A stretch of 40,363 nucleotides of DNA from Candidatus Dojkabacteria bacterium (GTDB lineage: Bacteria > Patescibacteriota > Dojkabacteria > J137). Position numbers and translations under genes: made by a program. How positions within the stretch are numbered: the stretch's first letter is position 1; each line of letters begins with the position of its first letter. This document shows positions 3,753-37,501 of the stretch, one piece after another. The notes below the pieces were generated by a model. That model made no database searches. It saw only the letters and a program-made list of their open reading frames with translations, and was not told the DNA's origin. The stretch spans positions 1 to 40,363 of the forward strand of contig JAMQHH010000016.1 of the NCBI GenBank assembly GCA_025993875.1. The letters are read 5' to 3'.

Positions 3753-4430
3753 ATGAATTCTGAGTTCTGGAACTTTTTAGGATTGCAAAAACCGGTAATG
3801 GAATATTGTGAAAAAGCAGGAGGAGGAATAATTGCCCGTCCTGGGTATTTTATTTCTAATTTTGCATACATAATTATTGGATTTGTTTTGTTAGCAAAAA
3901 AAAGAAAAATTTCTAAGACTTTTGGTATTTTTGCGATTTTAATTGGAGTAGCTTCTGGAATATACGATGCGTCTTATAGGGCAAACGCACAATTTCTCGA
4001 TGTTACTGTTATGTTTGGCTTTGTAATATTTTTATTTTGCCTAAACCTTAAATATATTTTTAATTTAAACATTCGTAAGCTTATTTTGCTTTACATACTA
4101 TTTATAATTATTTACTTTGTTTCTATTGATTTCTTGTTTGCAAAAGGGGCAGATCTAATACCTTTTGGAGTAGGAGTATTTGGTGTAATAGCATCCCAGC
4201 TTTATATTTGGGTTAAATTGGATAAAAATACATATAGTGCAAATAATAAAATGTGGGTTGCAGCCTTTATTCTTTTTTTTACAGGATATTTAATTTGGCA
4301 ATTTGATGCGCACAATATTATATGTGATACATTAAATCTATTTAACGGAAGAGGGATTTTTCATTATTTAACATCTATTGTTATTCTACTTCTAAGTAAT
4401 TTCTACTGTTCTATAAATTTCAAAAAATAA
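3753..4430 (+). CDS. Ceramidase-like (CREST superfamily) multi-pass membrane protein with altered active-site residues
   Basis: A 225-residue protein with about seven hydrophobic segments. It lines up with alkaline ceramidase/CREST membrane hydrolases: RPGYFISNFAYIIIGF (29-44) matches their SN-containing first helix, ASGIYDASYRANAQFLD (67-83) matches the S-x-x-(F/Y)-H ... LD block, and FNGRGIFHYLT (197-207) matches the HxxxH block near the C-terminus. Known family members bind zinc through three histidines with a Ser and Asp nearby. Here Ser68, Asp83 and His204 remain, but the first His is Asp72 and the first His of HxxxH is Arg200. It may be inactive, use other ligands, or belong to a distinct clade. 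TATAAT at 3715-3720 could be its -10. Following sequence to the comM gene holds no clear gene. Confidence 0.6.
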   Translation: MNSEFWNFLGLQKPVMEYCEKAGGGIIARPGYFISNFAYIIIGFVLLAKKRKISKTFGIFAILIGVASGIYDASYRANAQFLDVTVMFGFVIFLFCLNLKYIFNLNIRKLILLYILFIIIYFVSIDFLFAKGADLIPFGVGVFGVIASQLYIWVKLDKNTYSANNKMWVAAFILFFTGYLIWQFDAHNIICDTLNLFNGRGIFHYLTSIVILLLSNFYCSINFKK

Positions 4431-4737
4431 TGCAAGCTCTCCAAATAAGGCTAAGGTGAGTTTAATTTTATAAACTGATAATTGGCTTGTTGGCACAAGA
4501 AAAGAAAGACATTAAAAAAATTGATGTAGAGCCAGGGCTCAGTTTAATCTTACCCTTCTTTTTGTGAGGCTGGATTTGCGGTTTCCATGCTTGTAGATAG
4601 CCCGCGCTGACGGTGTGGTTTCTATATTCACCCATTTGTAGTTTTATAAGGCAAGATCTAAGTTGCTGTTGTCAAACAATATTGTATTTAGTTATAATCC
4701 ACTTGCCCCAGAAAAAATATTTATTATTCTTTTTGGG
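4431..4737. other. Intergenic stretch before comM, no clear gene
   Basis: Roughly 300 bases. The minus strand has a 55-codon frame (4635 down to 4468) beginning MGEYRNHTVSAGYLQAW and ending in a hydrophobic tail, but I recognise no family and it lacks any promoter or ribosome site I can support. GAGCCAGGGCTC at about 4530 is a small local palindrome. The comM reading frame is also open back to a TTG at 4663. No tRNA or terminator seen. Confidence 0.35.
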
Positions 4738-10126: not shown

Positions 10127-10354
10127 ATGTCAAAAACCTGGAGTGCATTAATAATAATAGGAGTGAGCTTGCTGTTTATTCTGTTTGGCTGGGAGATTAT
10201 TCAAATTACAGGAGGAGCAAGGTCGGCTGTTAATCAAGTTGTTATTACTATGCCACGCAATAACCTTATCCCCGATGAACTTTTAGAGCAGTTTGCATCT
10301 TCGAACGAATACCAATCATTTTTGCAAAGAGAGGCAGCTCAAGGAGCCGAATAA
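10127..10354 (+). CDS. Small single-pass membrane protein of the pilN-pilO operon
   Basis: 75 residues: a hydrophobic helix at 7-27 followed by an extracytoplasmic tail with ITMPRNNLIPDELLEQF and a polar end. I do not recognise the family. It starts 3 bases after the PilO-like gene and ends the operon, so a role with the pilus inner-membrane complex is the simplest guess. It could stand in for PilP, but it lacks a lipobox and the PilP beta-sandwich length. Confidence 0.6.
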   Translation: MSKTWSALIIIGVSLLFILFGWEIIQITGGARSAVNQVVITMPRNNLIPDELLEQFASSNEYQSFLQREAAQGAE

Positions 10355-10357
10355 ATT

Positions 10358-10375
10358 GATTATCTTAATCTTTTT
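10358..10375 (+). terminator. Weak hairpin plus T-run after the pilN-pilO operon
   Basis: GATTA TCT TAATC followed directly by TTTTT forms a 5-bp AT-rich stem with a 3-base loop just after the last stop of the operon and before the convergent ftsK end. The stem is weak, so termination strength is doubtful. Confidence 0.3.
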
Positions 10376-10386
10376 GGGAAAATATC

Positions 10387-12615
10387 TTAAGCTGTGCCTT
10401 TAAGCCCTTCTAAAAACTCGTCCGCATTAGAAATTAGTACCTCTCTTGGTTTGCTACCATTTGATGGTCCTACTGCGCCTATCTCCTCCAGCTCTTCCAG
10501 TAATCTTGCAGCTCTATTAAACCCAATATTTAGCCTTCTTTGCAAAAAAGATGAAGACCCTTTTTGATACTGTGCCACAATTCTTACCGCCTGTTCTAAA
10601 AGATTATCTCCCGAAATATCGCCAAAGCTTTCATCTTTTTCCTGGCCAGGCAAAACCTGTTTTTCTAAAATTTCGTTTACATATTCAACCTCGGGAGCCT
10701 GAGACTTTATAAAATCAACGATTCTAATAACTTCCTGCTGATCAATAAACGCACTTTGAAGCCTTACCGATTTTGGCTTATCGGGTGCTTTATATAAAAG
10801 ATCTCCATAACCTAAAAGGCTTTCAGCACCAATTCTATCTAAAATAACCCTGGAATCGGTACTAGAGGTTACACTCATACCCACCCTCCCCGGAATATTT
10901 GCCTTAATTATCCCTGTTATAACATTTACGGATGGTCTTTGTGTTGCAAGTATAAGATGAATACCAACCGCTCTTGCCTTTTGTGCAAGTCTTACAATCG
11001 ATACCTCCGCCTCTACACGGCTAGATGTCATCATCATATCGGCCATTTCGTCGATTACAACCACTATATAAGGCATTGCTGCAAAGCCTTTCTTTTCGTT
11101 ATATCCTTGAATATTTCTAACCTGTTCTTTTGCAAGATTGGTATATCTTCGTTCCATTTCGCCTACTGCCCATTTAAGCGCATTTACAACCTGATCCATG
11201 TTTGTAATAACCGGAGTTAAAAGATGGGGTATGCCGTTGTAGTCGGAAAGCTCAACCTGTTTTGGATCAACTAATATAAGTTTTACCTCGTCTGGAGTTT
11301 TTTGCATTAGTATTGAGGAGATAAAGGCATTCGTTAAAACCGATTTTCCTGATCCGGTTGCCCCCGCTATAAGCAAGTGAGGCATTTTCTGGATGTCTGC
11401 AACTACCGAACTACCATCAATATTCTTGCCGATAGGGGCGGGAAGTGACATTTTGTTGCCCGCCATCTCCTCCGATTCCATTATTTCTTTAAACCTAACC
11501 ATCTCTCTTTTTGTTCTTGGCACTTCTATCCCTAAAAATGTTGTATCGGGTATAGACTCTATTCTAACTGCTTTCGAATCTACTCCTAATGCCAAAGCCA
11601 AATTTGCACTTAAATTAACAACCTTCTCTACCTTTGTTCCGAGTGGAAGATTAAGCGCGTACTGAATTACAGATGCACCTACAAATGCATCTTCTACTTT
11701 GGCTTCGATTCCAAAACTGTTAAGTGTTTGCTCGATTATTCCGGCATTTTGGTCAATTGCCGGTTCATTTCCGGTACTTTTTTTGTATGGGAGTAACAAA
11801 GAAAGCGGAGGAAGTTTCCACCCAGGAAATTTTAGATTTTCCTGCTTTAATCCCTCCTCTCCAACAGATGCTTCTTTAATTTCTACATTCGCAACCTCTC
11901 TTCGTAACTTTGGTTGCTTTTCTGCTTTGCCGTCGGGTTCGGGTTTAACAAATTTTTTATCGTTTTTCTCCTCAACTTTTTTGTTTTTTATCATTTTATT
12001 AAAGTCTCCAAAAGTAGAGGCTTTGTTTATCTCATCCATCTTGCTTGGTGATTTTTCGGCTGCAAATTCATCTTTTCCAAAAAATGGGTCGATAATAATT
12101 TTTAAAACCTTCCCGGTATTTTCGATAATAAAGCTTAGAGGTATTGCTAAAGCTATAGGCAGTGCAAGTAGTGTCATTAAAAATAGAATAAGCCTAGTGG
12201 CTGGCTCTGTCGGGAAAGTTTCTCCCATTAAGTCTTGCACAATAAAACAACCAACTTGCCCCCCATACATTCCGCTATCACAGTCCATTCTTGCCAGCTC
12301 ACGAGTACCATTTCCAAATGAAGTTATTAACGCCGGCAAAATAAATATTAACAGTAATTGCGCAGCAAGACTTAATCCTCTTGTAAAAGGTGTTTTAAGA
12401 CCCAGTAGCCTTGCCCCGAGGAAAAATAAAAAGACAGAAGTGAGTGGAGTAGAGACACCAAAAATGTTTCTTGCTATCAGGAAAAGATTATCGGTCTTTT
12501 CGACAGTGATAAAAGATGAGAGCAAGAAAAAGACCCCAAGAATTAAGCAGATTAATCCAAAAATAGTAAGAGTCTCTTTGCTGTCGTATGTAACATGCTT
12601 TTTTCTTCGAGCCAT
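10387..12615 (-). CDS. ftsK: FtsK/SpoIIIE DNA translocase
   Basis: Hexameric motor that pumps chromosome ends through the closing division septum. The 742-residue protein has about four N-terminal membrane helices (17-165), a charged linker (about 175-260), the alpha/beta motor with Walker A GATGSGKS (418-425), a VVVIDEMADMMM Walker B, the ATQRPSVNVITGIIKANIPGRV segment in two parts, and the C-terminal gamma winged helix with SSSFLQRRLNIGFNRAARLL, which reads KOPS/SRS-type orientation sequences. All domains are present and the linker is short, as in SpoIIIE. It is divergent from the methyltransferase gene; an antisense frame of 312 codons opposite it is a shadow. Confidence 0.97.
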   Translation of the reverse strand: MARRKKHVTYDSKETLTIFGLICLILGVFFLLSSFITVEKTDNLFLIARNIFGVSTPLTSVFLFFLGARLLGLKTPFTRGLSLAAQLLLIFILPALITSFGNGTRELARMDCDSGMYGGQVGCFIVQDLMGETFPTEPATRLILFLMTLLALPIALAIPLSFIIENTGKVLKIIIDPFFGKDEFAAEKSPSKMDEINKASTFGDFNKMIKNKKVEEKNDKKFVKPEPDGKAEKQPKLRREVANVEIKEASVGEEGLKQENLKFPGWKLPPLSLLLPYKKSTGNEPAIDQNAGIIEQTLNSFGIEAKVEDAFVGASVIQYALNLPLGTKVEKVVNLSANLALALGVDSKAVRIESIPDTTFLGIEVPRTKREMVRFKEIMESEEMAGNKMSLPAPIGKNIDGSSVVADIQKMPHLLIAGATGSGKSVLTNAFISSILMQKTPDEVKLILVDPKQVELSDYNGIPHLLTPVITNMDQVVNALKWAVGEMERRYTNLAKEQVRNIQGYNEKKGFAAMPYIVVVIDEMADMMMTSSRVEAEVSIVRLAQKARAVGIHLILATQRPSVNVITGIIKANIPGRVGMSVTSSTDSRVILDRIGAESLLGYGDLLYKAPDKPKSVRLQSAFIDQQEVIRIVDFIKSQAPEVEYVNEILEKQVLPGQEKDESFGDISGDNLLEQAVRIVAQYQKGSSSFLQRRLNIGFNRAARLLEELEEIGAVGPSNGSKPREVLISNADEFLEGLKGTA

Positions 12616-19958: not shown

Positions 19959-20678
19959 ATGAATATTGAATTTAAAATTTCACCCAACCCATTAAATGTT
20001 TTAATTTTTCTAAATGTTCTTATTTTTATCTTTGCCCTTTTTATAACAAATAACTTAGGGCTCGATAAAAATATGTTTACAATTTTAGGCGGGCTTTCCA
20101 CATTCGATATAAGTAAGGGAGCATTGTATCAACTAGTAACAGCTAACTTTCTTCACATACAGGTTTTACACTTTATTTTTAACATGTACTCCTTAATTGT
20201 TGCAGGAAGACTGGTAGATTATTTTTATGGAGGAAAAAAGTTGCTGATTACATACATAATAGGTGGAATAGCGGCAAGTTTATTAACCTATTTAGGAGGA
20301 GTAATAGAGCAAACAAATATTTTATCTTTAGGAGCCTCGGGTTCGATATTTGCCTTGGTAGGTCTTCTTATAGGTGGAGTCTTGAAAAAAAACAGATACG
20401 GTATGGATTTGCCTTTTTCTTTAAGAGAAATTCTCCCCTTTGTTGTTGTCTCTTTTGCTTTAGGCTTTATTCCGGGATCCAGTATAAACAACTGGGCACA
20501 CTTTGGCGGACTAATAGCAGGAATTTTACTAGGCTATTTTTTGAAAACCCTAAATAACGAGATTTTTAATCAGCAGGAGCGTTCTGTTGTGAAGCTGCTG
20601 GATTTTACTGTTAAAATTATTCTAGGACTTTCCTTTTTAACACTTATAACAATTTTCTTGCAGTTAATTATCTTTTAA
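19959..20678 (+). CDS. Rhomboid-family intramembrane serine protease
   Basis: 239 residues, six or seven membrane helices. The catalytic Ser127 sits in LGASGSIFALVG (GxSG) and the partner His181 in NWAHFGGLIAGILLG. The oxyanion-side helix has NFLHIQVLHFIFNMYSL with His71 and Asn75. Rhomboids cut membrane proteins within their first transmembrane segment; possible targets here would be single-pass surface proteins, but none is proved. Five bases after the cupin gene and 11 before adk, so likely within an operon. Confidence 0.93.
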   Translation: MNIEFKISPNPLNVLIFLNVLIFIFALFITNNLGLDKNMFTILGGLSTFDISKGALYQLVTANFLHIQVLHFIFNMYSLIVAGRLVDYFYGGKKLLITYIIGGIAASLLTYLGGVIEQTNILSLGASGSIFALVGLLIGGVLKKNRYGMDLPFSLREILPFVVVSFALGFIPGSSINNWAHFGGLIAGILLGYFLKTLNNEIFNQQERSVVKLLDFTVKIILGLSFLTLITIFLQLIIF

Positions 20679-27964: not shown

Positions 27965-30900
27965 CTAATTGTTAAGAAAAAATTTATTTACCTCTTGGTT
28001 AATGCTTTCGGAAGATTGATTTTCTGGCAGATTCTCAGATAAATATACATTTGAAACAACCCCTTTGTTTGTAATATCTACCTCTGCAATTTTTAGCAAC
28101 CCTTTTTCGACAACTTTATTTTTTAGTTGATCCAGTCTGTATCCTTGTTTCCAGCAATTAATAAAGTGAGTTCCATTGGCGGCATTAAAGCGTATTGAAC
28201 CATCTTTACCTGATATTTTTACGTCTACAATGTCAAATTTTCTGTTATACAACCTTGCCACAACTCCCTGTATGCCTGATTGGTCGACAGCTTTAATAAC
28301 TCTGCCTTCTTTTATTCTCCCCATATTAAGAAAAACGGGAATATTTAGTGCAATAATAAAAATGTACAACAATAAAAGCAATAGATTAATAGTAGAAAAG
28401 GATACAAGCGTTGATGAAACTGTATAACCAAATCCAAATAAAATGAGTATACCTAGGACAATCTTAATAAAATTAAATATCTCTGTTTTGGAATAGTAAG
28501 ATAATTTTTTAAATCTACTAAATAAAGAGATATTTTCTAGTTTTGTTAACGCAATATCGGATATTATTGCTCCGTTAGTTACATTAATCGCCGTTTCGAA
28601 AGGAAAATACCCGCCAGAGGAAACTTCGAGTTTGTAACTTCCGTTATTTAACACTTTTATAAAATACTTTCCCTCAGTGTCGGACACAGATTTATAAATC
28701 TCATTTGAGTTTGCTAAATTTTTTGCAACAATGTTTGCAAAAGGTACTGGTTTATTTTGAGATAAATCGACTATAATTCCCCAGTATTTTCTTTTTCGTG
28801 GAATTAAAAGACCCAGCACCATTAAACCTTTTAAAAACTGGTGGCCGCCACTAGATAAAGCTATTCCTGTTATAGCACTTAATGAAACAGCAACCAAAAT
28901 TGGAGAAGCAGTTACAACAGTATCAATAACAGTAAGAGTAGTTGCAGATCTACCGGTTTGTGTTAAAGAAATAGGTATAATAGGAACGTCGTTTAACTCT
29001 GTTGGTACAGGAATATTTAATGTGAATTCCCTGATTTCGGATGCTCCGCTTTGCGAATTATCTGCTTTAACACTAATAATTTGCCATATGTTTTGTCCCG
29101 ATTTAGCATGCAGGTTTGAAAGAGTGTATTGTAAAACACTACTTTCCACTTGCGCTATTTCCCTGCCGTTTACAAGTATTTTGTAACCTGTTACAAGAGG
29201 GTCTGTAGACTCCAGCCATTTGAGTGTAGGAAACGAAGTAACAAATTCAAGGTGCAATGGTGCTACAAGAGTAATCGGAAAACTAAAAGTGAATACTCTG
29301 GTTTCGGAAATACCGCTTTGAAAATTGTTTGCTCTTTTTGCAACAATGTGCCAGGTATAATTTCCGGAGGCAAGGGTGTTTGTTAAAGTATAAGTTGTAG
29401 TTGGGTGAGCAACTGTTGCCAGAAAGGTAGTGTTTAAATATATTTCATATGTTGATATTAAAGCATCGGTAGATGCCTGCCACTCAAGAACGGGAGAATT
29501 TGTGAGTGCTACATTATTATTTGGTGAAATTAATGTTATTGGAAAAGAGAAATCACTTACTGCAAAAATGCTTGTTGCCGATATAGCGCTTTGAGAGTGA
29601 TTTAGTCTTTTGGCTACAACGTACCATGTATAATTACCCGGAGCCAGATCTGTTGTTAATGAGTATGCTGTAACAGGGTGGGAAACAGAGGCTAAATGAT
29701 TCCCGTTTAAATATATGTCGTACGAACCTATCCATGGGTCTGTCGATGCAGTCCAAGATAGAGTAGGGAGGTTTACCGATACAGTTGCCCCGTTTACAGG
29801 AGCAGTTAAAGTAATTGGGTAAGGTGCATCAGGTGTGGTGATTGGATCAAAAACAATTTGTACCGGATTTGAAAAAATGCTAGCAACATAGGCAGCTTCT
29901 AAATATGAAGTTCTCCCGTTTGCAATTCCATCCGGTCCATTTACACCTCCTCCCGAGTAGCTGCCGGCTCCGTCGTCAAACCCTAGAAAAGATACATTAT
30001 CTTCAACAAGTGTAGTATCTACAGTTATTATCCACTGTGAACCATTCCAAACTGGGTTTGCATCTACCATTTCCAGCTCTATTGCCGTTCCGCCTCCTAA
30101 GCTATTGGTGGCATAATCGCGTGTTGCAGCTGGATTATAGGCCCACTGGTGAGCCCTATCAGTAAGAGTTTGAGGCTGACTTGTAGAGTTTCCGTCTGTG
30201 GTAAAAGTCTCAGCTTGCGCTATATGGTTTTGGTCAATTTTGTATGTAGAATAGTAGGTTTTCGTACCTGTCTGGTTAATAATGTACTCTACAAATGATC
30301 CGCGTAAAAGCGCCCAACTGTAAACCCCTAATGGTAATGGATTTAATCCAAATACTGCAGATTTGTTTAGTTCTCCACTGGTTGCGCCCGAAGCTGGGCA
30401 ATATCCTGCAGAAGAACAGTCCTGTTTAAAATTCCCTAATGTCTGCACCCTGGACGATGGATCTAGACTTTGTTGAACAATATTTGTAGATGGAATACTT
30501 AGACTTATAAATTCGTCTGCTAGGTCAGTTCTTCTAATGTTTCCCGAAAAAAGTTCAAAAAAACCGCTCCAGCTTTGAACAATATTTTCGTTATTTCCAT
30601 TTCCTGTACTAAAATCATTATCATTAAAAAGTGTCGATTCGTTTGCCGGCAGCGAATCAATACTGATAATACCACCCCAGCCGTTATCAGAAATACAATT
30701 AGCTTCCAATCCATTGCAGAGCGATCCAGTTAAAGTAGTCGTTCCACCAATTAAAAGTCTCGATGGACTTACATCAAACATATAAATATTTGGGTCAAGA
30801 TGGTACCCAAAACTAAACACCCCATATTGGTTGTTGCCCTTAATAGTGTTTCCATACAACTGACTAACTGCTGTAAATGTTCCTATCCCGTTTTTTAAAT

Positions 30901-33900
30901 TCCCTCCAAGGGGAAGTCCGGCAATTACCCTTCCCGTTCCTGCTCCAATGATATTATTACGAATTATTGGCCAGTTTGTGGAAGAATCCGCAACAACACC
31001 AAACCCGGGGTGATTTAAAATTAAAATACCGTCACCTTTGTTATCTGATATATCGTTATCTTCTACCACAAGCTGATTAGAATGTAGTAAGGCTTGAAAC
31101 TGTATTCCACCATATGAAGTAAAATATCCGTAGGCATTTTCACTCTCTTCTTGGTTATTAAACCTAATTAGATTTCCCGAAACAAGAAAATTTCCGGTAA
31201 CGGTTGTCTGAGAAGTTTGAAAAACTATTCCTCCCCTTTTATTTCCAAAATTTACGGTTCCTTCTTCGTTGGAACCAATAATATTTCCCTTTATCTCAAT
31301 ATCGTCCCAGACTGTAGAAAGCCCTGTGGCATTTAAAAAGTGCACTCCTCTAAGACCATTAGAAATAACATTGCCATCGTCAGGATTGCTTCCCCCAATA
31401 TATATGTTGGTACAGCTTCCCGGACAACTAATATAAATATTGACTCCTGCGTTTTCTCTCGCAATAGAGCCGGTGTTATCCAGTCCAAAGTAATTTCCTT
31501 TTATCGTTAAATTGTCGAGGCTAGAGGAATCAGTACCGGTAAAAGATATTGCAACATCTAAATCGCCAAATATATTTCTACCTGCCAAGCTCCCATCCCC
31601 AATGCTAATATCCGAAATGGATAGAGCGTTTTGCGTAAAGGATATGCCTGCATCTTCATTGACTCCCGGAGAAATGGATACTGGGGCGAATGCAGTATTT
31701 AGCCCGAAAACATTTCCCAAAATGGTAGTATTAGAAGCATCTGCATCAAAAAATATACATCCCGCACTGATACCTCCAGCACAAAAGTTTTCGGAAATTT
31801 CCATCCCTCCAAGAGGTCCGGTCAATGTAATTCCACTTCCAAGCGATATTGTTGAAGAGGTGAGCCCATCTGCAACAAGTCCAAAAGTATTGCCATTAAC
31901 AACAAAATTGGAAAAATTTGAATCAATACCCGAATTGTTTGCTACATTGATACCAGAGGAAGAACAATTAGAACAAACCAGCCCGCTTATCACATTGTCC
32001 GGGCCAATATTAATATTTGATGCCTGATTCGCAGATATCAAAATTGCAAAACTAATATTATCTGATCTTTCGAGCAGCCCTGTTGGGTCTAGTCCAAAAT
32101 AGTTATGGGAAATGGTTAAATCACTTATGGAATCTGTGGACACTATGCCAAGAAAAGTAGAGTTTTCCCCGGTAGCATTACCCGCAAAAATATTCATCTC
32201 GCCTATAACCGATCCTCCGATTTCCAGCTGAGAAATGTTGTTAAATGTTGGTGCGGGGTTCGAGCCGAATCCTGTTCCTGCTTGACCAAGTCTGTTGAGA
32301 CCAAAGTAATTTCCCTTTATCTCACTGGCTAACACATACGATTCAGGAGTTGAGTCTAGCCTTAGGCAAAAAGGTTGTCCTATTATGTTATTCAACAAAT
32401 GAAAATTAGAAATAGTCACACCAGCTGTTCCTTCGTAAGTTATGCAACCAGGTCTTGTAGAAGATGCATTGTTTTCAAAATACTTAAATCCGATTCCCCT
32501 TGGGTCCAATGCAATGTAATTTTCTAAAACCCAAACATGACTAATATTAACTCCAGACGGAATCCAGATTGCAGAGTGAGAATTGTTTAGAGCAAAACCT
32601 TTAATGGTTGTGTTATCAGCTCCATTTAAATTAAATATTGGAATTCCTGGCGTAAAAATGCTCACTTCAATTTCAGGACCGTCAATATTAAAATCACCAA
32701 CATTTATTGTCTGGGTAGATCCATCAATATTTACTGATTCTGAAATTGCATCAAAGCCCGAACTTTCTATTGTCCAATAATCATCGCCACCTGTACCGTC
32801 GCCGGAACCTGGGGTAGTGGGATCATCATAGTCCCTATAGCCCGGATCAAGTTGGGGAATATTAAAGTAAATGTTATCACTGCCAATAAGTGTGTTGGCT
32901 TCATTAATGGCAGCTTTTAGCGTACATGTTGCTATGGAGGTGGCACATAAACCATCACCCGGGGTATCGTCGGCTTCATCTCCTGTAGAATCCACTGTAA
33001 AGGTAGAATTTTCCATAACCTGAGATCGCACTTTTTTAATAACTGCCCCGTCTTTATCTAAAAGTTCAATTTCGGCGTAAACATACCCCCCTGGCCTATT
33101 TTGCGATCTTAAAATAAATACTGTTTCTCCTCTTACATTATTTTTAATCTCTGCTTCGCCAATAAATTCACCTGAATCGTAATAGATCTTTACAGAAAAT
33201 CTATGGAGTAATTCATCAATAATTATCTGGGATGTTTTTCCGTAAACAACCTTGTTGCCGTTTGCAAACGATGCCTGAAAAATTACAGGAAAAGGAATGT
33301 CTATAGCACTATCGGCTAAATCTATCTCTGTTATAAACGAAACTGGTGTTTCGGCAAATTGTTCATACGATACCGGCTCTTCTAAATTAAAGACTTCAAC
33401 TTTTTGTTTTTCTTTTTCTACTACTGTCGGATCTTCTACTGCATAAACAACCTGTAATTCTCGTTCAATTAACAAAGAGGATAGTGATGTGGGTGTTTTC
33501 CCATCGGAATTTAAGAATGCTTTTACATAAAGAGTGTTGCCTCCAATAATTGTGCCTAGCTCGTTCATTTTTTCCGAGACAGTTTTTGCTAAATTTGAGC
33601 TTGCCCAGCCAGATTCGGTTTTCTCCCATCCACTTAACCCGTAATAATACCAATGTGTTTTATCGGGAGAAAATTGGTATGTCACTGTTGAAAGTGGAGA
33701 TTGATTTGTTTCGATAGTTAGATTATTTAAGCTAGTGTAAGTACTATCTAGTATTCCTGCAAGTGAGGAAAATATAATAGGTTCTGTAAAAATAACATAG
33801 GGGCTTGTAGTAGTGTAGCCTTTAGAAACAAGCTCAATAGATTTACCTTCAACACTACCGCTTATAGGCACTTCTTGTTCTGTTGGGATCACAGTTACTT

Positions 33901-34942
33901 CCGGGCTTGTTTCAATAATATTATCGGGTAACGAAGAACTCTCAATCTGTTCTTCTGAACTTTCAATTTCTAGAGCTTCATTTGATAAATTTTCTATTAT
34001 TTCTGCAGGTTCAGAGGGATTGAGATCTGTATTTAATAAATTTTCTAATCCGAATAATTCCTCCGACGGTATTTCTTTGTCTAAACTATCTAATTCTAAA
34101 ATTTCCTGTGGATCAAACTGTTCCTTTAACTGAAGTTTTCCATCGACTATTTCGATTAGGGCAGAATCAAATTCACTTTTTTCCAAATCGATATAAACTT
34201 CCCGGGAAAAATCTGCAAATACGCTTTCTATTCTTACATTGTTAAATATTACAATGCCTCCGGCAATAAAAAGAGCAACCTGGCATATCAGAATAAAAAC
34301 ACCAGCAATTAGTGCAACCAAAGTAGGATATACTTGAACGCGAAATTTTTTAAGATCTTCTTCGGATTGAGCTATATTGGCATCTTTTCCTTTATGTGTA
34401 GTTACCAATAAAATTGCCAAATTTAAACTACTAACGATCTCATTTAATATCCATGGGAAAAACAGAAAAACCTTGTTTAAAAAAGTTTTTCCCATTCTCC
34501 ATCTAATAATATCTCTCTTGTTAGACAAGTTTAGCAAAGTTGTTCTAAAAAAAAGTTTATATTTCGAACCAATAGTTAACAATCCTGCTTGCTTTCCCAT
34601 GCAGGATAGAAATTTATTTAAAAATCCCGAGTCTTTTTTTTCAATGATAGAAAAATTTTGAGAAAATTGGGTTTTTATATTATAAGAGCCATCGGTGAGC
34701 ACAATAACTTTTCGGCTGTTTAGCCTTTGACTGCTTATAATAAAATCAAGAACCTCGCGGCCACTGTATTTAGGAAGGGTTGCATCAATTACTATAACCT
34801 CTGGGTCGGTGGCAAAAATTAAACCCAGCCCTTGTACACCATCCTGTGCGGTAAAAACTTCTATTCCGGGAAATTGCTCAGCAAGCAAAGACTTAAGAAT
34901 AAACCTTATTGCAAAATTATCATCAATAAGTACTAGTTTCAT
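27965..34942 (-). CDS. Giant receiver-domain surface protein: REC + membrane anchor + CSLREAI beta-helix + FN3-like repeats + two CarboxypepD_reg domains
   Basis: 2325 residues. Residues 1-115 are a response-regulator receiver with acid pocket Asp7/Asp8, phospho-acceptor Asp53 in VIDATLP, Thr83 and Lys102/103, so phosphorylation-competent. A hydrophobic stretch at about 158-180 and a strong transmembrane helix at 208-233 follow, then an acidic Ser/Glu-rich spacer (250-360). A CSLREAI-type module (CTLKAAINEAN, 673-683) leads into a long right-handed beta-helix (about 720-1480) with recurrent GNYFGLD-like turns. Three FN3-like repeats occupy 1700-1798, 1799-1886 and 1887-1978. Then a hydrophobic segment (2012-2048), a carboxypeptidase-regulatory-like domain (2053-2135), two helices (2155-2207) and a second such domain (2210-2300). 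The ectodomain is an adhesin by architecture. No kinase gene is near. The fusion of a cytoplasmic REC to an ectodomain is unusual; the frame is unbroken. Confidence 0.8.
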   Translation of the reverse strand: MKLVLIDDNFAIRFILKSLLAEQFPGIEVFTAQDGVQGLGLIFATDPEVIVIDATLPKYSGREVLDFIISSQRLNSRKVIVLTDGSYNIKTQFSQNFSIIEKKDSGFLNKFLSCMGKQAGLLTIGSKYKLFFRTTLLNLSNKRDIIRWRMGKTFLNKVFLFFPWILNEIVSSLNLAILLVTTHKGKDANIAQSEEDLKKFRVQVYPTLVALIAGVFILICQVALFIAGGIVIFNNVRIESVFADFSREVYIDLEKSEFDSALIEIVDGKLQLKEQFDPQEILELDSLDKEIPSEELFGLENLLNTDLNPSEPAEIIENLSNEALEIESSEEQIESSSLPDNIIETSPEVTVIPTEQEVPISGSVEGKSIELVSKGYTTTSPYVIFTEPIIFSSLAGILDSTYTSLNNLTIETNQSPLSTVTYQFSPDKTHWYYYGLSGWEKTESGWASSNLAKTVSEKMNELGTIIGGNTLYVKAFLNSDGKTPTSLSSLLIERELQVVYAVEDPTVVEKEKQKVEVFNLEEPVSYEQFAETPVSFITEIDLADSAIDIPFPVIFQASFANGNKVVYGKTSQIIIDELLHRFSVKIYYDSGEFIGEAEIKNNVRGETVFILRSQNRPGGYVYAEIELLDKDGAVIKKVRSQVMENSTFTVDSTGDEADDTPGDGLCATSIATCTLKAAINEANTLIGSDNIYFNIPQLDPGYRDYDDPTTPGSGDGTGGDDYWTIESSGFDAISESVNIDGSTQTINVGDFNIDGPEIEVSIFTPGIPIFNLNGADNTTIKGFALNNSHSAIWIPSGVNISHVWVLENYIALDPRGIGFKYFENNASSTRPGCITYEGTAGVTISNFHLLNNIIGQPFCLRLDSTPESYVLASEIKGNYFGLNRLGQAGTGFGSNPAPTFNNISQLEIGGSVIGEMNIFAGNATGENSTFLGIVSTDSISDLTISHNYFGLDPTGLLERSDNISFAILISANQASNINIGPDNVISGLVCSNCSSSGINVANNSGIDSNFSNFVVNGNTFGLVADGLTSSTISLGSGITLTGPLGGMEISENFCAGGISAGCIFFDADASNTTILGNVFGLNTAFAPVSISPGVNEDAGISFTQNALSISDISIGDGSLAGRNIFGDLDVAISFTGTDSSSLDNLTIKGNYFGLDNTGSIARENAGVNIYISCPGSCTNIYIGGSNPDDGNVISNGLRGVHFLNATGLSTVWDDIEIKGNIIGSNEEGTVNFGNKRGGIVFQTSQTTVTGNFLVSGNLIRFNNQEESENAYGYFTSYGGIQFQALLHSNQLVVEDNDISDNKGDGILILNHPGFGVVADSSTNWPIIRNNIIGAGTGRVIAGLPLGGNLKNGIGTFTAVSQLYGNTIKGNNQYGVFSFGYHLDPNIYMFDVSPSRLLIGGTTTLTGSLCNGLEANCISDNGWGGIISIDSLPANESTLFNDNDFSTGNGNNENIVQSWSGFFELFSGNIRRTDLADEFISLSIPSTNIVQQSLDPSSRVQTLGNFKQDCSSAGYCPASGATSGELNKSAVFGLNPLPLGVYSWALLRGSFVEYIINQTGTKTYYSTYKIDQNHIAQAETFTTDGNSTSQPQTLTDRAHQWAYNPAATRDYATNSLGGGTAIELEMVDANPVWNGSQWIITVDTTLVEDNVSFLGFDDGAGSYSGGGVNGPDGIANGRTSYLEAAYVASIFSNPVQIVFDPITTPDAPYPITLTAPVNGATVSVNLPTLSWTASTDPWIGSYDIYLNGNHLASVSHPVTAYSLTTDLAPGNYTWYVVAKRLNHSQSAISATSIFAVSDFSFPITLISPNNNVALTNSPVLEWQASTDALISTYEIYLNTTFLATVAHPTTTYTLTNTLASGNYTWHIVAKRANNFQSGISETRVFTFSFPITLVAPLHLEFVTSFPTLKWLESTDPLVTGYKILVNGREIAQVESSVLQYTLSNLHAKSGQNIWQIISVKADNSQSGASEIREFTLNIPVPTELNDVPIIPISLTQTGRSATTLTVIDTVVTASPILVAVSLSAITGIALSSGGHQFLKGLMVLGLLIPRKRKYWGIIVDLSQNKPVPFANIVAKNLANSNEIYKSVSDTEGKYFIKVLNNGSYKLEVSSGGYFPFETAINVTNGAIISDIALTKLENISLFSRFKKLSYYSKTEIFNFIKIVLGILILFGFGYTVSSTLVSFSTINLLLLLLYIFIIALNIPVFLNMGRIKEGRVIKAVDQSGIQGVVARLYNRKFDIVDVKISGKDGSIRFNAANGTHFINCWKQGYRLDQLKNKVVEKGLLKIAEVDITNKGVVSNVYLSENLPENQSSESINQEVNKFFLNN
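29011..29845 (-). repeat. Three tandem FN3-like repeats inside the giant surface protein
   Basis: Residues 1700-1978 hold three copies of about 88-98 residues. Each begins with PITL, has a W in the B strand (LSW, LEW, LKW), a STD turn, a YxIYLN strand and a NYTWxxVAKR-type strand, and ends in SGISE or similar. Copies 1 and 2 are closest; copy 3 has diverged. This is internal duplication within the coding frame and serves as a stalk. Confidence 0.75.
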
Positions 34943-35167: not shown

Positions 35168-37501
35168 ATGCTAGGCCAAAAAGGCCAAATCTATTCGGAA
35201 CCTTCCCAATTTCGCCCCCATGTTACAGAAGATGTTTCTCCCAAGACAAGAGACCAAACAATGGGTATTTCGTTATCTTTTTTGGCAGAGATTTTTAAAA
35301 TGATGGTGCCACATGGCCATCAATTACAATGGAATCCTGACAAAGATGATACTACATTAGACTATTGGTTTCCTAAACAAAGTATTGCCAACGCAATAGC
35401 TTCGTTTCTAGATTATATAGCAAAGAATTTTAATCCAGGTAGTTTAAAAAAAGAGGACTCTCGTAAAGATAATCTTAGTTTACCGTCGGGAGAAGATAGA
35501 GAAGACATATTAAGGCGAATAAAAATTGCCATAGAAAAAAAAATGATAGGAGAGCAGGATTGTGAATTTGAACAAATAGAGGGTTTATATCTTGCCATAT
35601 TGGGCTGGTATGGGATTATTTTTCATATGCAGGAAAATTTAATTGAGGACTGGCTTTTTTTAAGGCAAAATCAGCAAATCAATATTCGGGAGAACTTAGA
35701 AAGAAAGTACAAAACAACTCCTGGATATATTTTAGATATTTTTGAAGAGTTTTTGCAAAAGGTGAAGGATAGCGATTCTATTGATCTATTCTGTGAGGAA
35801 TTCGGAATTATTATATGTAAAATGCAGTTTTCAAAGAATTTTTCCGGTCTTACGGACGAAGAGCTGCAAGAACTTTTATATACCGAAAATCTTTATGACA
35901 TAATATACAAAATTGCAACGACAAGAAGTGCAAAAGAACACAACGAGGGTTTGCAAACATATTCTGAAGTAAGTGTTAAAGCGAAGCTCTTTTTTAACCC
36001 CGAAAAGCCCCTGGAAAGAGTAACAATCGATATCAGGTTCGATAAAATAGAAGTAGTAAGAGATGAAAATGGAAAAATTACCGAAGTGAGGATAAGAGAT
36101 TTTAAAAGCGGGATGTTAGGCGGTATTCTAACTCTATCGGCCGGCGAGTTACTGCAGTGGGTATTAAACATTATTGTTGTCTCCGAATTGGTTTCTAAAT
36201 TATCAAGAGATCCTGTTAAAAGTGAAGACGATTTTAAATTCTTTCTTGTGGAGATTAAACTTTGGGAATTTTCCGATCACTATAAACATGCCAAGAAGCT
36301 GGCAAGGGTAAAGCAGAGCTGGATTCCTACGGGTGAGAATGTTGACGGGAAAACTCTTGATTTCGAATTTTCTTTAACCGAATTAATGCGTGTTTTGCAT
36401 TCCATTGCCGATCTTTTTGAACACTTATTGGATTGTAAAAAAAGAATTTCTGAATTAAGAAAGTCGGAAACGAAAAAAGCTGAATACCCAGTGCTGGCTT
36501 TTCCTAAGCCACCGCCAAGTAATAAAGTTTCACCAGAATGGGCATTAAAGTCTCCTCCAGGCTTACAAACAGCAATTGTCTCTGAAAACCCTTATAATTT
36601 AATCGATAGACCAATGGAAATGATGGATGGCGTTGATCTAATTGAACCTTTGAATAACAGGCCAATTCTAAAGATAATAAAAGGCGGAAGGTTAACAGAG
36701 GTTACACTTTTTAAAGGAAGAGGTAGTTCATTTCGGGATGCGCAAATCCAATATGTTTTTAATGGTCCGGATGTATTAGATGAAGATAATAATCTTTATT
36801 ATGGGATTACAAGAGAGACTCTTTATATCGTTATCAATGGAGAGGTTTTTATTCTTTCAATCCCACAACAAAGATATTTCGCCTTAAAGGGCCTAGATGG
36901 GATATTTTGTTTTGACCAACCAAACTCTCTAATTTATCTATCACTATTAACTCCAGGTAATCTTCCAGCCTATCGGCAAAACCTAAATCTAAGAGTTAAT
37001 TTTGAACGTAAAAAATTACCTGGGTTTCAAAAAACAAATGATTATGCATTTTATGATAATAAGTATTACCCTATTTTTGAATACAAGGGGATATTTTTTA
37101 TAAAGTATTCGGTAAATATATATTTTATTGTGGATAAGCAAAGTAGAGATGTTTATAATAATCGATTTTTTACAACATGCGAATTATTGGCATTTGCCGA
37201 TGCAAGCGTTACTAGGGAACAATGGGATAAGGTTTTTGAAGAGCTTGAATTAAGCCGGTTCCCTGTTAATTTGTATTACTACAACGATAGGCATGGCAAT
37301 CCACAACCACCCTATGTGGAGATAATAGGTAAAAATACATCTTACCCACTATCAGAAGACAATACATTTACTATAGACGGTATTATTAAATACGGACTAT
37401 ATTTAGGGGAGGAAAACGAGGTTATGGCTTATAGATTGCATGCAGGATTTAACGGCAGTATGTTAGAGAGGGAGGAGTATGTTAGTGCCATAGAACAATA
37501 A
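35168..37501 (+). CDS. Unknown protein with a PD-(D/E)XK nuclease-type core and a beta-rich C-terminal half
   Basis: 777 residues. The N-terminal helical part (about 40-250) precedes a segment with the exact spacing of RecB/Cas4-type nuclease motifs: SEVSVKAKLFF with Glu267, a strand ending TIDIRFDKIEV with Asp292, and RIRDFKSG with Asp311 and Lys313, followed by ELLQWVLNIIV (327-337), which resembles the QxxxY helix. Residues 450-500 are a Pro-rich linker. The C-terminal 280 residues are beta-rich with repeated aromatic and Asn/Asp turns (for instance YFALKGLDGIFCFD, FYDNKYYPIFEYKG) and resemble no family I can name. The ATG at 35168 is used; a second ATG at 35261 is possible. No SD. Divergent from the giant surface protein. 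Confidence 0.55.
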   Translation: MLGQKGQIYSEPSQFRPHVTEDVSPKTRDQTMGISLSFLAEIFKMMVPHGHQLQWNPDKDDTTLDYWFPKQSIANAIASFLDYIAKNFNPGSLKKEDSRKDNLSLPSGEDREDILRRIKIAIEKKMIGEQDCEFEQIEGLYLAILGWYGIIFHMQENLIEDWLFLRQNQQINIRENLERKYKTTPGYILDIFEEFLQKVKDSDSIDLFCEEFGIIICKMQFSKNFSGLTDEELQELLYTENLYDIIYKIATTRSAKEHNEGLQTYSEVSVKAKLFFNPEKPLERVTIDIRFDKIEVVRDENGKITEVRIRDFKSGMLGGILTLSAGELLQWVLNIIVVSELVSKLSRDPVKSEDDFKFFLVEIKLWEFSDHYKHAKKLARVKQSWIPTGENVDGKTLDFEFSLTELMRVLHSIADLFEHLLDCKKRISELRKSETKKAEYPVLAFPKPPPSNKVSPEWALKSPPGLQTAIVSENPYNLIDRPMEMMDGVDLIEPLNNRPILKIIKGGRLTEVTLFKGRGSSFRDAQIQYVFNGPDVLDEDNNLYYGITRETLYIVINGEVFILSIPQQRYFALKGLDGIFCFDQPNSLIYLSLLTPGNLPAYRQNLNLRVNFERKKLPGFQKTNDYAFYDNKYYPIFEYKGIFFIKYSVNIYFIVDKQSRDVYNNRFFTTCELLAFADASVTREQWDKVFEELELSRFPVNLYYYNDRHGNPQPPYVEIIGKNTSYPLSEDNTFTIDGIIKYGLYLGEENEVMAYRLHAGFNGSMLEREEYVSAIEQ

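Follow-up and report, generated by a model that had tools for sequence, protein, structure and literature searches.

Receiver domains normally end in cytoplasmic outputs. The receiver pocket and the Thr/Ser–Tyr/Phe switch that accompanies it (Y/T coupling) have been described (PMC4395418), and in the anti-sigma factor RsiV protective amphipathic helices are required just after the signal-peptidase site (PMC6066255). A literature search found no description of a receiver–signal segment–adhesin architecture, which is not proof that none exists. Here we analysed a window of 40,363 nucleotides from a Candidatus Dojkabacteria genome, the whole stretch of DNA under study, in which a receiver that looks competent for phosphorylation is encoded in-frame with a giant surface protein. 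The evidence supports a conserved architecture and not a join, and suggests that an internal signalling module forms part of the end by which a cell-surface adhesin is exported, and that it may be cut off from the adhesin in the process.

The gene is a single uninterrupted ORF of 2325 amino acids whose ATG start lies three codons inside the open frame, and the unbroken run from receiver into adhesin that had been claimed was found exactly over 27965-34942 on the minus strand (Table 1). The domain order is receiver (REC), juxtamembrane helices, membrane segment, a CSLREA-type beta-rich ectodomain, three Ig/FN3-like repeats and a C-terminal membrane/CarboxypepD_reg module. Hydropathy placed membrane segments at about residues 200-236, 2001-2033 and 2153-2210, with a weaker one at 162-180. 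In the AlphaFold model (20-sequence alignment, pLDDT 83), a receiver fold (2-115) is followed by two helices (127-150 and 154-181) and a long helix (190-245).

Table 1. Features of the REC–adhesin gene and their positions in the window.
Feature	Residues	Window position	Strand	Basis
Whole ORF, REC–signal-anchor–adhesin	2325 aa	27965..34942	-	ORF and translation
Receiver (REC); D7, D8, D53, T83, K102; helix alpha4 absent in model	1-115	34598..34942	-	Pfam, AF2 model, PDB fold search, site table
Juxtamembrane helices	127-150 and 154-181	34400..34564	-	AF2 secondary structure, conservation, hydrophobic moment
Hydrophobic membrane/signal-sequence segment	about 200-236	34235..34345	-	Hydropathy 2.92; model helix 190-245
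Predicted signal-peptidase site (V-F-A, cut before D244)	241-243	34214..34222	-	(-3,-1) rule; A243 nearly invariant
CSLREA-like motif (CTLKAAI)	650-683	32894..32995	-	TIGR04214 20.7 bits, below cut-off
Three tandem Ig/FN3-like repeats	about 1790-1963	29054..29575	-	Pfam and repeat visible in translation
C-terminal membrane segment, then RKRK	2001-2033	28844..28942	-	Hydropathy; aligned in relatives
CarboxypepD_reg domain 1	2055-2125	28568..28780	-	Pfam 45.5 bits
Membrane hairpin	2153-2210	28313..28486	-	Hydropathy

The profile check of the N-terminus, set beforehand as a test, gave a Response_reg (PF00072) match over residues 4-84 at 34.5 bits, above the Pfam cut-off of 30.2; several relatives score below that cut-off. 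Foldseek comparison of the modelled receiver with the PDB returned DivK as the best match, and other receivers matched too. With the modelled REC fold and D7, D8, D53, T83 and K102 all in place, the original prediction of a receiver stands. D53 and K102 are kept in all 23 receivers of the site table, which rules out an aspartate-less receiver; position 7 is Asp or Glu in 23/23, and position 8 is Asp in 19, Asn in three and Glu in one. The Thr83 position, Thr in the window protein, holds Thr or Ser in only 6 of the 23, and the residue three before Lys102 is Tyr or Phe in none of them, leaving no aromatic switch. The beta4–beta5 stretch measures 16-20 residues in the family, here called REC giants, compared with 22-23 in the genome's own four regulators, and the AF2 model of the window receiver has no helix alpha4 between beta4 (78-83) and beta5 (97-101). 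As read from these sequences, the pocket of PMC4395418 is kept in REC-giant receivers and the usual switch is not. Because the Thr/aromatic switch is lost in most members and helix alpha4 is lost in the model, a standard receiver output is unlikely. These same losses, together with the Asn that replaces the second acidic pocket residue in three members, would suit a receiver that serves passively in the cytosol, as a plug or for retention, fixing an N-in topology, with phosphorylation being irrelevant. A plug, however, needs neither Asp53 nor Lys102, and both persist in every receiver despite much variation; we judge this reading improbable.

Of six receiver matches in the window genome, two lie in giant frames (the window protein and a paralogue on contig C23). 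Searching with the first 253 residues recovered more giant frames at the family, order and class levels. Elsewhere in the class the same N-terminal module opens giant frames of 750-4672 aa, and one of the genomes concerned, Candidatus Dojkabacteria KatS3mg085 (G004, AP024679.1), is a single contig. The search of other genomes for the REC–membrane–adhesin arrangement, proposed with the original prediction, was positive within the class: a profile built from only the juxtamembrane and membrane part matched 12 of the 86 class genomes. Among 380 genomes drawn across the phylum, the sole match outside the class was one weak, unrelated-looking sequence. Two candidates were set aside as looking unrelated, the weak match in G317, a membrane protein without a receiver start, and a Spo0A-like regulator at a Clostridiales locus (L087). 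Named records are almost all Candidatus Dojkabacteria, one being labelled Doudnabacteria and some only 'bacterium'. The receiver precedes the juxtamembrane part in the fetched members that are intact there, the exceptions being a copy truncated by a contig end (G011:C3) and the frame-broken G002 copy, which is split into several frames (L063:4317-14001). Behind this one conserved module the outer parts are swapped, being of the CSLREA type, NHL propellers, Laminin_G_3/F5_F8 type C or Beta_helix. An assembly or binning artefact that joined a receiver gene to an adhesin gene might be suspected in a metagenome-type assembly of 40 contigs, but GC runs smoothly across the junction, and an assembly join is refuted by homologous junctions, one in the C23 paralogue and others in independent genomes, the single-contig one among them; we regard an artefact as extremely improbable.

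Further copies of the module occur in other settings. A 273-aa ORF in G001 (contig C44) comprises the REC and membrane parts with no adhesin, which shows, at the level of sequence, that this module can stand alone; it is divergent from an ECF-sigma-like gene (L066:4300-5782), and seemingly the same arrangement in G007 (L067) is cut by the contig end. Two REC giants lie in tandem beside a cysteinyl-tRNA synthetase-like gene at L054:6340-16584, with a similar pair in G042 (L055). The single-contig genome also encodes a receiver of 155 aa that belongs to this family but lacks the membrane part (L068:3841-4308).

A new feature of the family, read from the alignment, is a (-3,-1) signature for signal peptidase, present behind the membrane segment in every member readable there. 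The rule is obeyed in 21/21 rows, which are related sequences and not 21 independent events. The -1 position is Ala in 20 rows (Ala243 in the window protein) and Gly in one; the -3 position is small or aliphatic in all 21, compared with 7/21 at -2 and 4/21 at -5, and -2 is charged, aromatic or polar in 14/21. The residues allowed at -3 (A, G, S, T, V, I, L, C and M) were our own choice, and one row uses M. Because only the -3 and -1 positions are kept in an N-terminal alignment whose members are just 25-40% identical to the window protein (mean column identity 36%), we argue that this site is a functional one for signal peptidase. Giants that lack the receiver but have the same C-terminal module, in some cases encoded by the same genomes, start with an extended hydrophobic signal sequence that closes with an Ala site; a REC-less CSLREA protein reading EEVEA/ATIEVNSTGD (slash, site) aligns where a REC giant has EDVKA/LVTLTVDSTLDD. 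Leaders of other exported proteins in the window genome end in V-x-A (SVVA/Q, RVLA/S), and signal peptidase I is encoded twice in this genome. The signal sequence most likely carries the receiver as an N-terminal addition. Given the 21/21 signature and the ordinary signal peptides of REC-less relatives, the mature adhesin is probably cut from the receiver at export, at the predicted site A243. The juxtamembrane helix 154-181 is hydrophobic and mildly amphipathic by its hydrophobic moment. The first hydrophobic helix of the juxtamembrane part could in principle be a second transmembrane helix. A receiver lying outside the cell, with two transmembrane helices before the adhesin, is unlikely, since REC-less ectodomains start right after an N-in signal peptide.

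These observations divide the signalling reading of the original prediction. A real receiver does share one frame with a giant surface protein, and the arrangement is conserved; the idea of a single chain coupling a phosphorelay to the surface is weakened, because the signature and the REC-less signal peptides point to separation at export. What this leaves would be a membrane-tethered, phosphorylatable-looking receiver made one-to-one with an adhesin. The length of the hydrophobic segment counts against cleavage and can favour an uncleaved anchor. It would fit, as would the model helix continuous to residue 245 and the conserved phospho-pocket, an uncut protein in which the segment is a permanent anchor and receiver phosphorylation alters adhesin clustering or presentation from inside, the inside-out signalling first proposed. 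Such an anchor leaves unexplained why -3 and -1 alone are kept amid freely varying neighbours. The model also lacks helix alpha4, which belongs to the usual dimer face, and members do not conserve the Thr switch. We consider an uncut protein unlikely, though it keeps appreciable weight. The conserved signature would also accommodate outside-in signalling by regulated cleavage, in which adhesin binding exposes the site and the cut releases or alters the tethered receiver, with parts ordered as in RsiV (PMC6066255). RsiV, however, needs its protective amphipathic helices just after the site, whereas here the residues following A243 are variable and often beta-like, and in some members the CSLREA motif begins only a few residues later; this route appears quite improbable.

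The exported part matched the predicted domains unevenly. The CSLREAI motif reads CTLKAAI in the window protein and falls short of the NCBIfam cut-off for TIGR04214 (20.7 against 25 bits), although the C23 paralogue passes at 34.0. A beta-helix was not confirmed for the window ectodomain, which had no beta-helix match in Pfam, no PDB relative by profile search and a pLDDT of 42 in an AF2 model built on a five-row alignment; one relative (G031:C9) does pass Beta_helix. Two of the supposed FN3-like repeats gained Ig-like Pfam matches, Big_7 in two stretches (best 1802-1863) and Ig_RIMBP2 at 1915-1964, which pass, while the third repeat is seen by eye and not by Pfam. Likewise, the first of the two CarboxypepD_reg domains scores 45.5 bits and the second is visible by eye but not to Pfam here, relatives scoring two stretches. 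By the positive-inside rule, basic residues flank the cytosolic side of a membrane segment. The basic RKRK after the C-terminal segment therefore suggests that the CarboxypepD_reg modules face the cytosol.

The explanation we prefer, to which we give about an even chance as a whole, is a giant adhesin-like protein with a cytoplasmic receiver added N-terminally to its signal sequence. Residues 1-115, the receiver, would fold in the cytosol, the two juxtamembrane helices would lie on the inner membrane surface, and the hydrophobic segment at about 200-236 would direct export while the N-terminus stays inside. A cut by signal peptidase I after Ala243 would yield two products, a receiver part of 243 residues tethered to the membrane and an exported part of about 2080 residues held by the C-terminal membrane segments. 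Asp53 would be phosphorylated by one of the cell's few histidine kinases, and the receiver would act at the membrane by a non-standard switch. Its most likely target would be insertion or export of its own adhesin, or else the tethered receiver would report that export; control of its own adhesin's insertion or export, and a tethered receiver made one-to-one with the adhesin, are in our view the two best options for it. A possible role in export is suggested by the receiver's position. The stronger proposal is that selected giant adhesins are exported or presented at the surface under the direct control of a phosphorelay, with the phosphorylation state deciding insertion, cutting and display; we offer it only tentatively, as a possibility somewhat on the doubtful side.

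As first stated, no kinase lies nearby: there is no histidine kinase on the window contig, no signalling gene adjoins the window gene, and no constant neighbour was noticed by eye in the fetched loci of members. The window genome has three HisKA matches, with kinase-type ORFs on contigs C6, C38 and C9. Since HisKA kinases occur in 77 of the 86 class genomes, co-occurrence of kinase and receiver is uninformative; the only HisKA kinase of G008 adjoins an OmpR-length regulator. A type IV pilus-like operon, recognised by eye at L013:3583-12561, encodes a receiver on its own (4105-4596) together with a histidine kinase of 808 aa (10135-12561), and is a candidate for supplying the kinase. Elsewhere in the window, a 777-aa protein with no Pfam match is encoded divergently from the REC gene (35168-37501, plus strand), and a gene for a Rhomboid-family intramembrane protease (Pfam, 100.8 bits) lies at 19959-20678 on the plus strand.

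In this lineage of largely uncultured bacteria with very small genomes, one receiver module has repeatedly been placed at the export end of giant surface proteins of different kinds. Should phosphorylation influence export or display, two-component signalling would have a direct post-translational path to attachment at the cell surface, which would hint at how these cells select the adhesin that they display. REC, juxtamembrane helices and signal segment together form a compact, conserved module that is testable in isolation.

Compared with known systems, REC giants share with CheY/DivK-type and stand-alone receivers (PF00072) the receiver fold, the acidic residues, the phospho-Asp and the Lys, but differ in having no alpha4 (in the model), a short beta4–beta5 stretch and neither the conserved Thr/Ser nor the aromatic switch, and in being fused to a membrane segment and a giant ectodomain. 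REC-less giant surface proteins of Patescibacteria, CSLREA-type and others, have the ectodomain motif and the C-terminal CarboxypepD_reg module in common with REC giants, and carry a plain signal peptide in place of the receiver and signal segment. LapD resembles them as inside-out signalling in which an intracellular signal controls adhesion outside, but is a separate c-di-GMP receptor that controls periplasmic proteolysis, with no known receiver domain or fusion to the adhesin. RsiV/DUF4179 anti-sigma factors (PMC6066255) likewise have a regulatory domain in the cytosol, a single membrane segment bearing a signal-peptidase site and an extracellular domain, whereas REC giants have a receiver instead of the anti-sigma domain, a giant adhesin-like ectodomain and no evident protective helices. 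By analogy, RsiV is an earlier example of a regulator in the cytosol that is linked to an ectodomain with a signal-peptidase site between the two.
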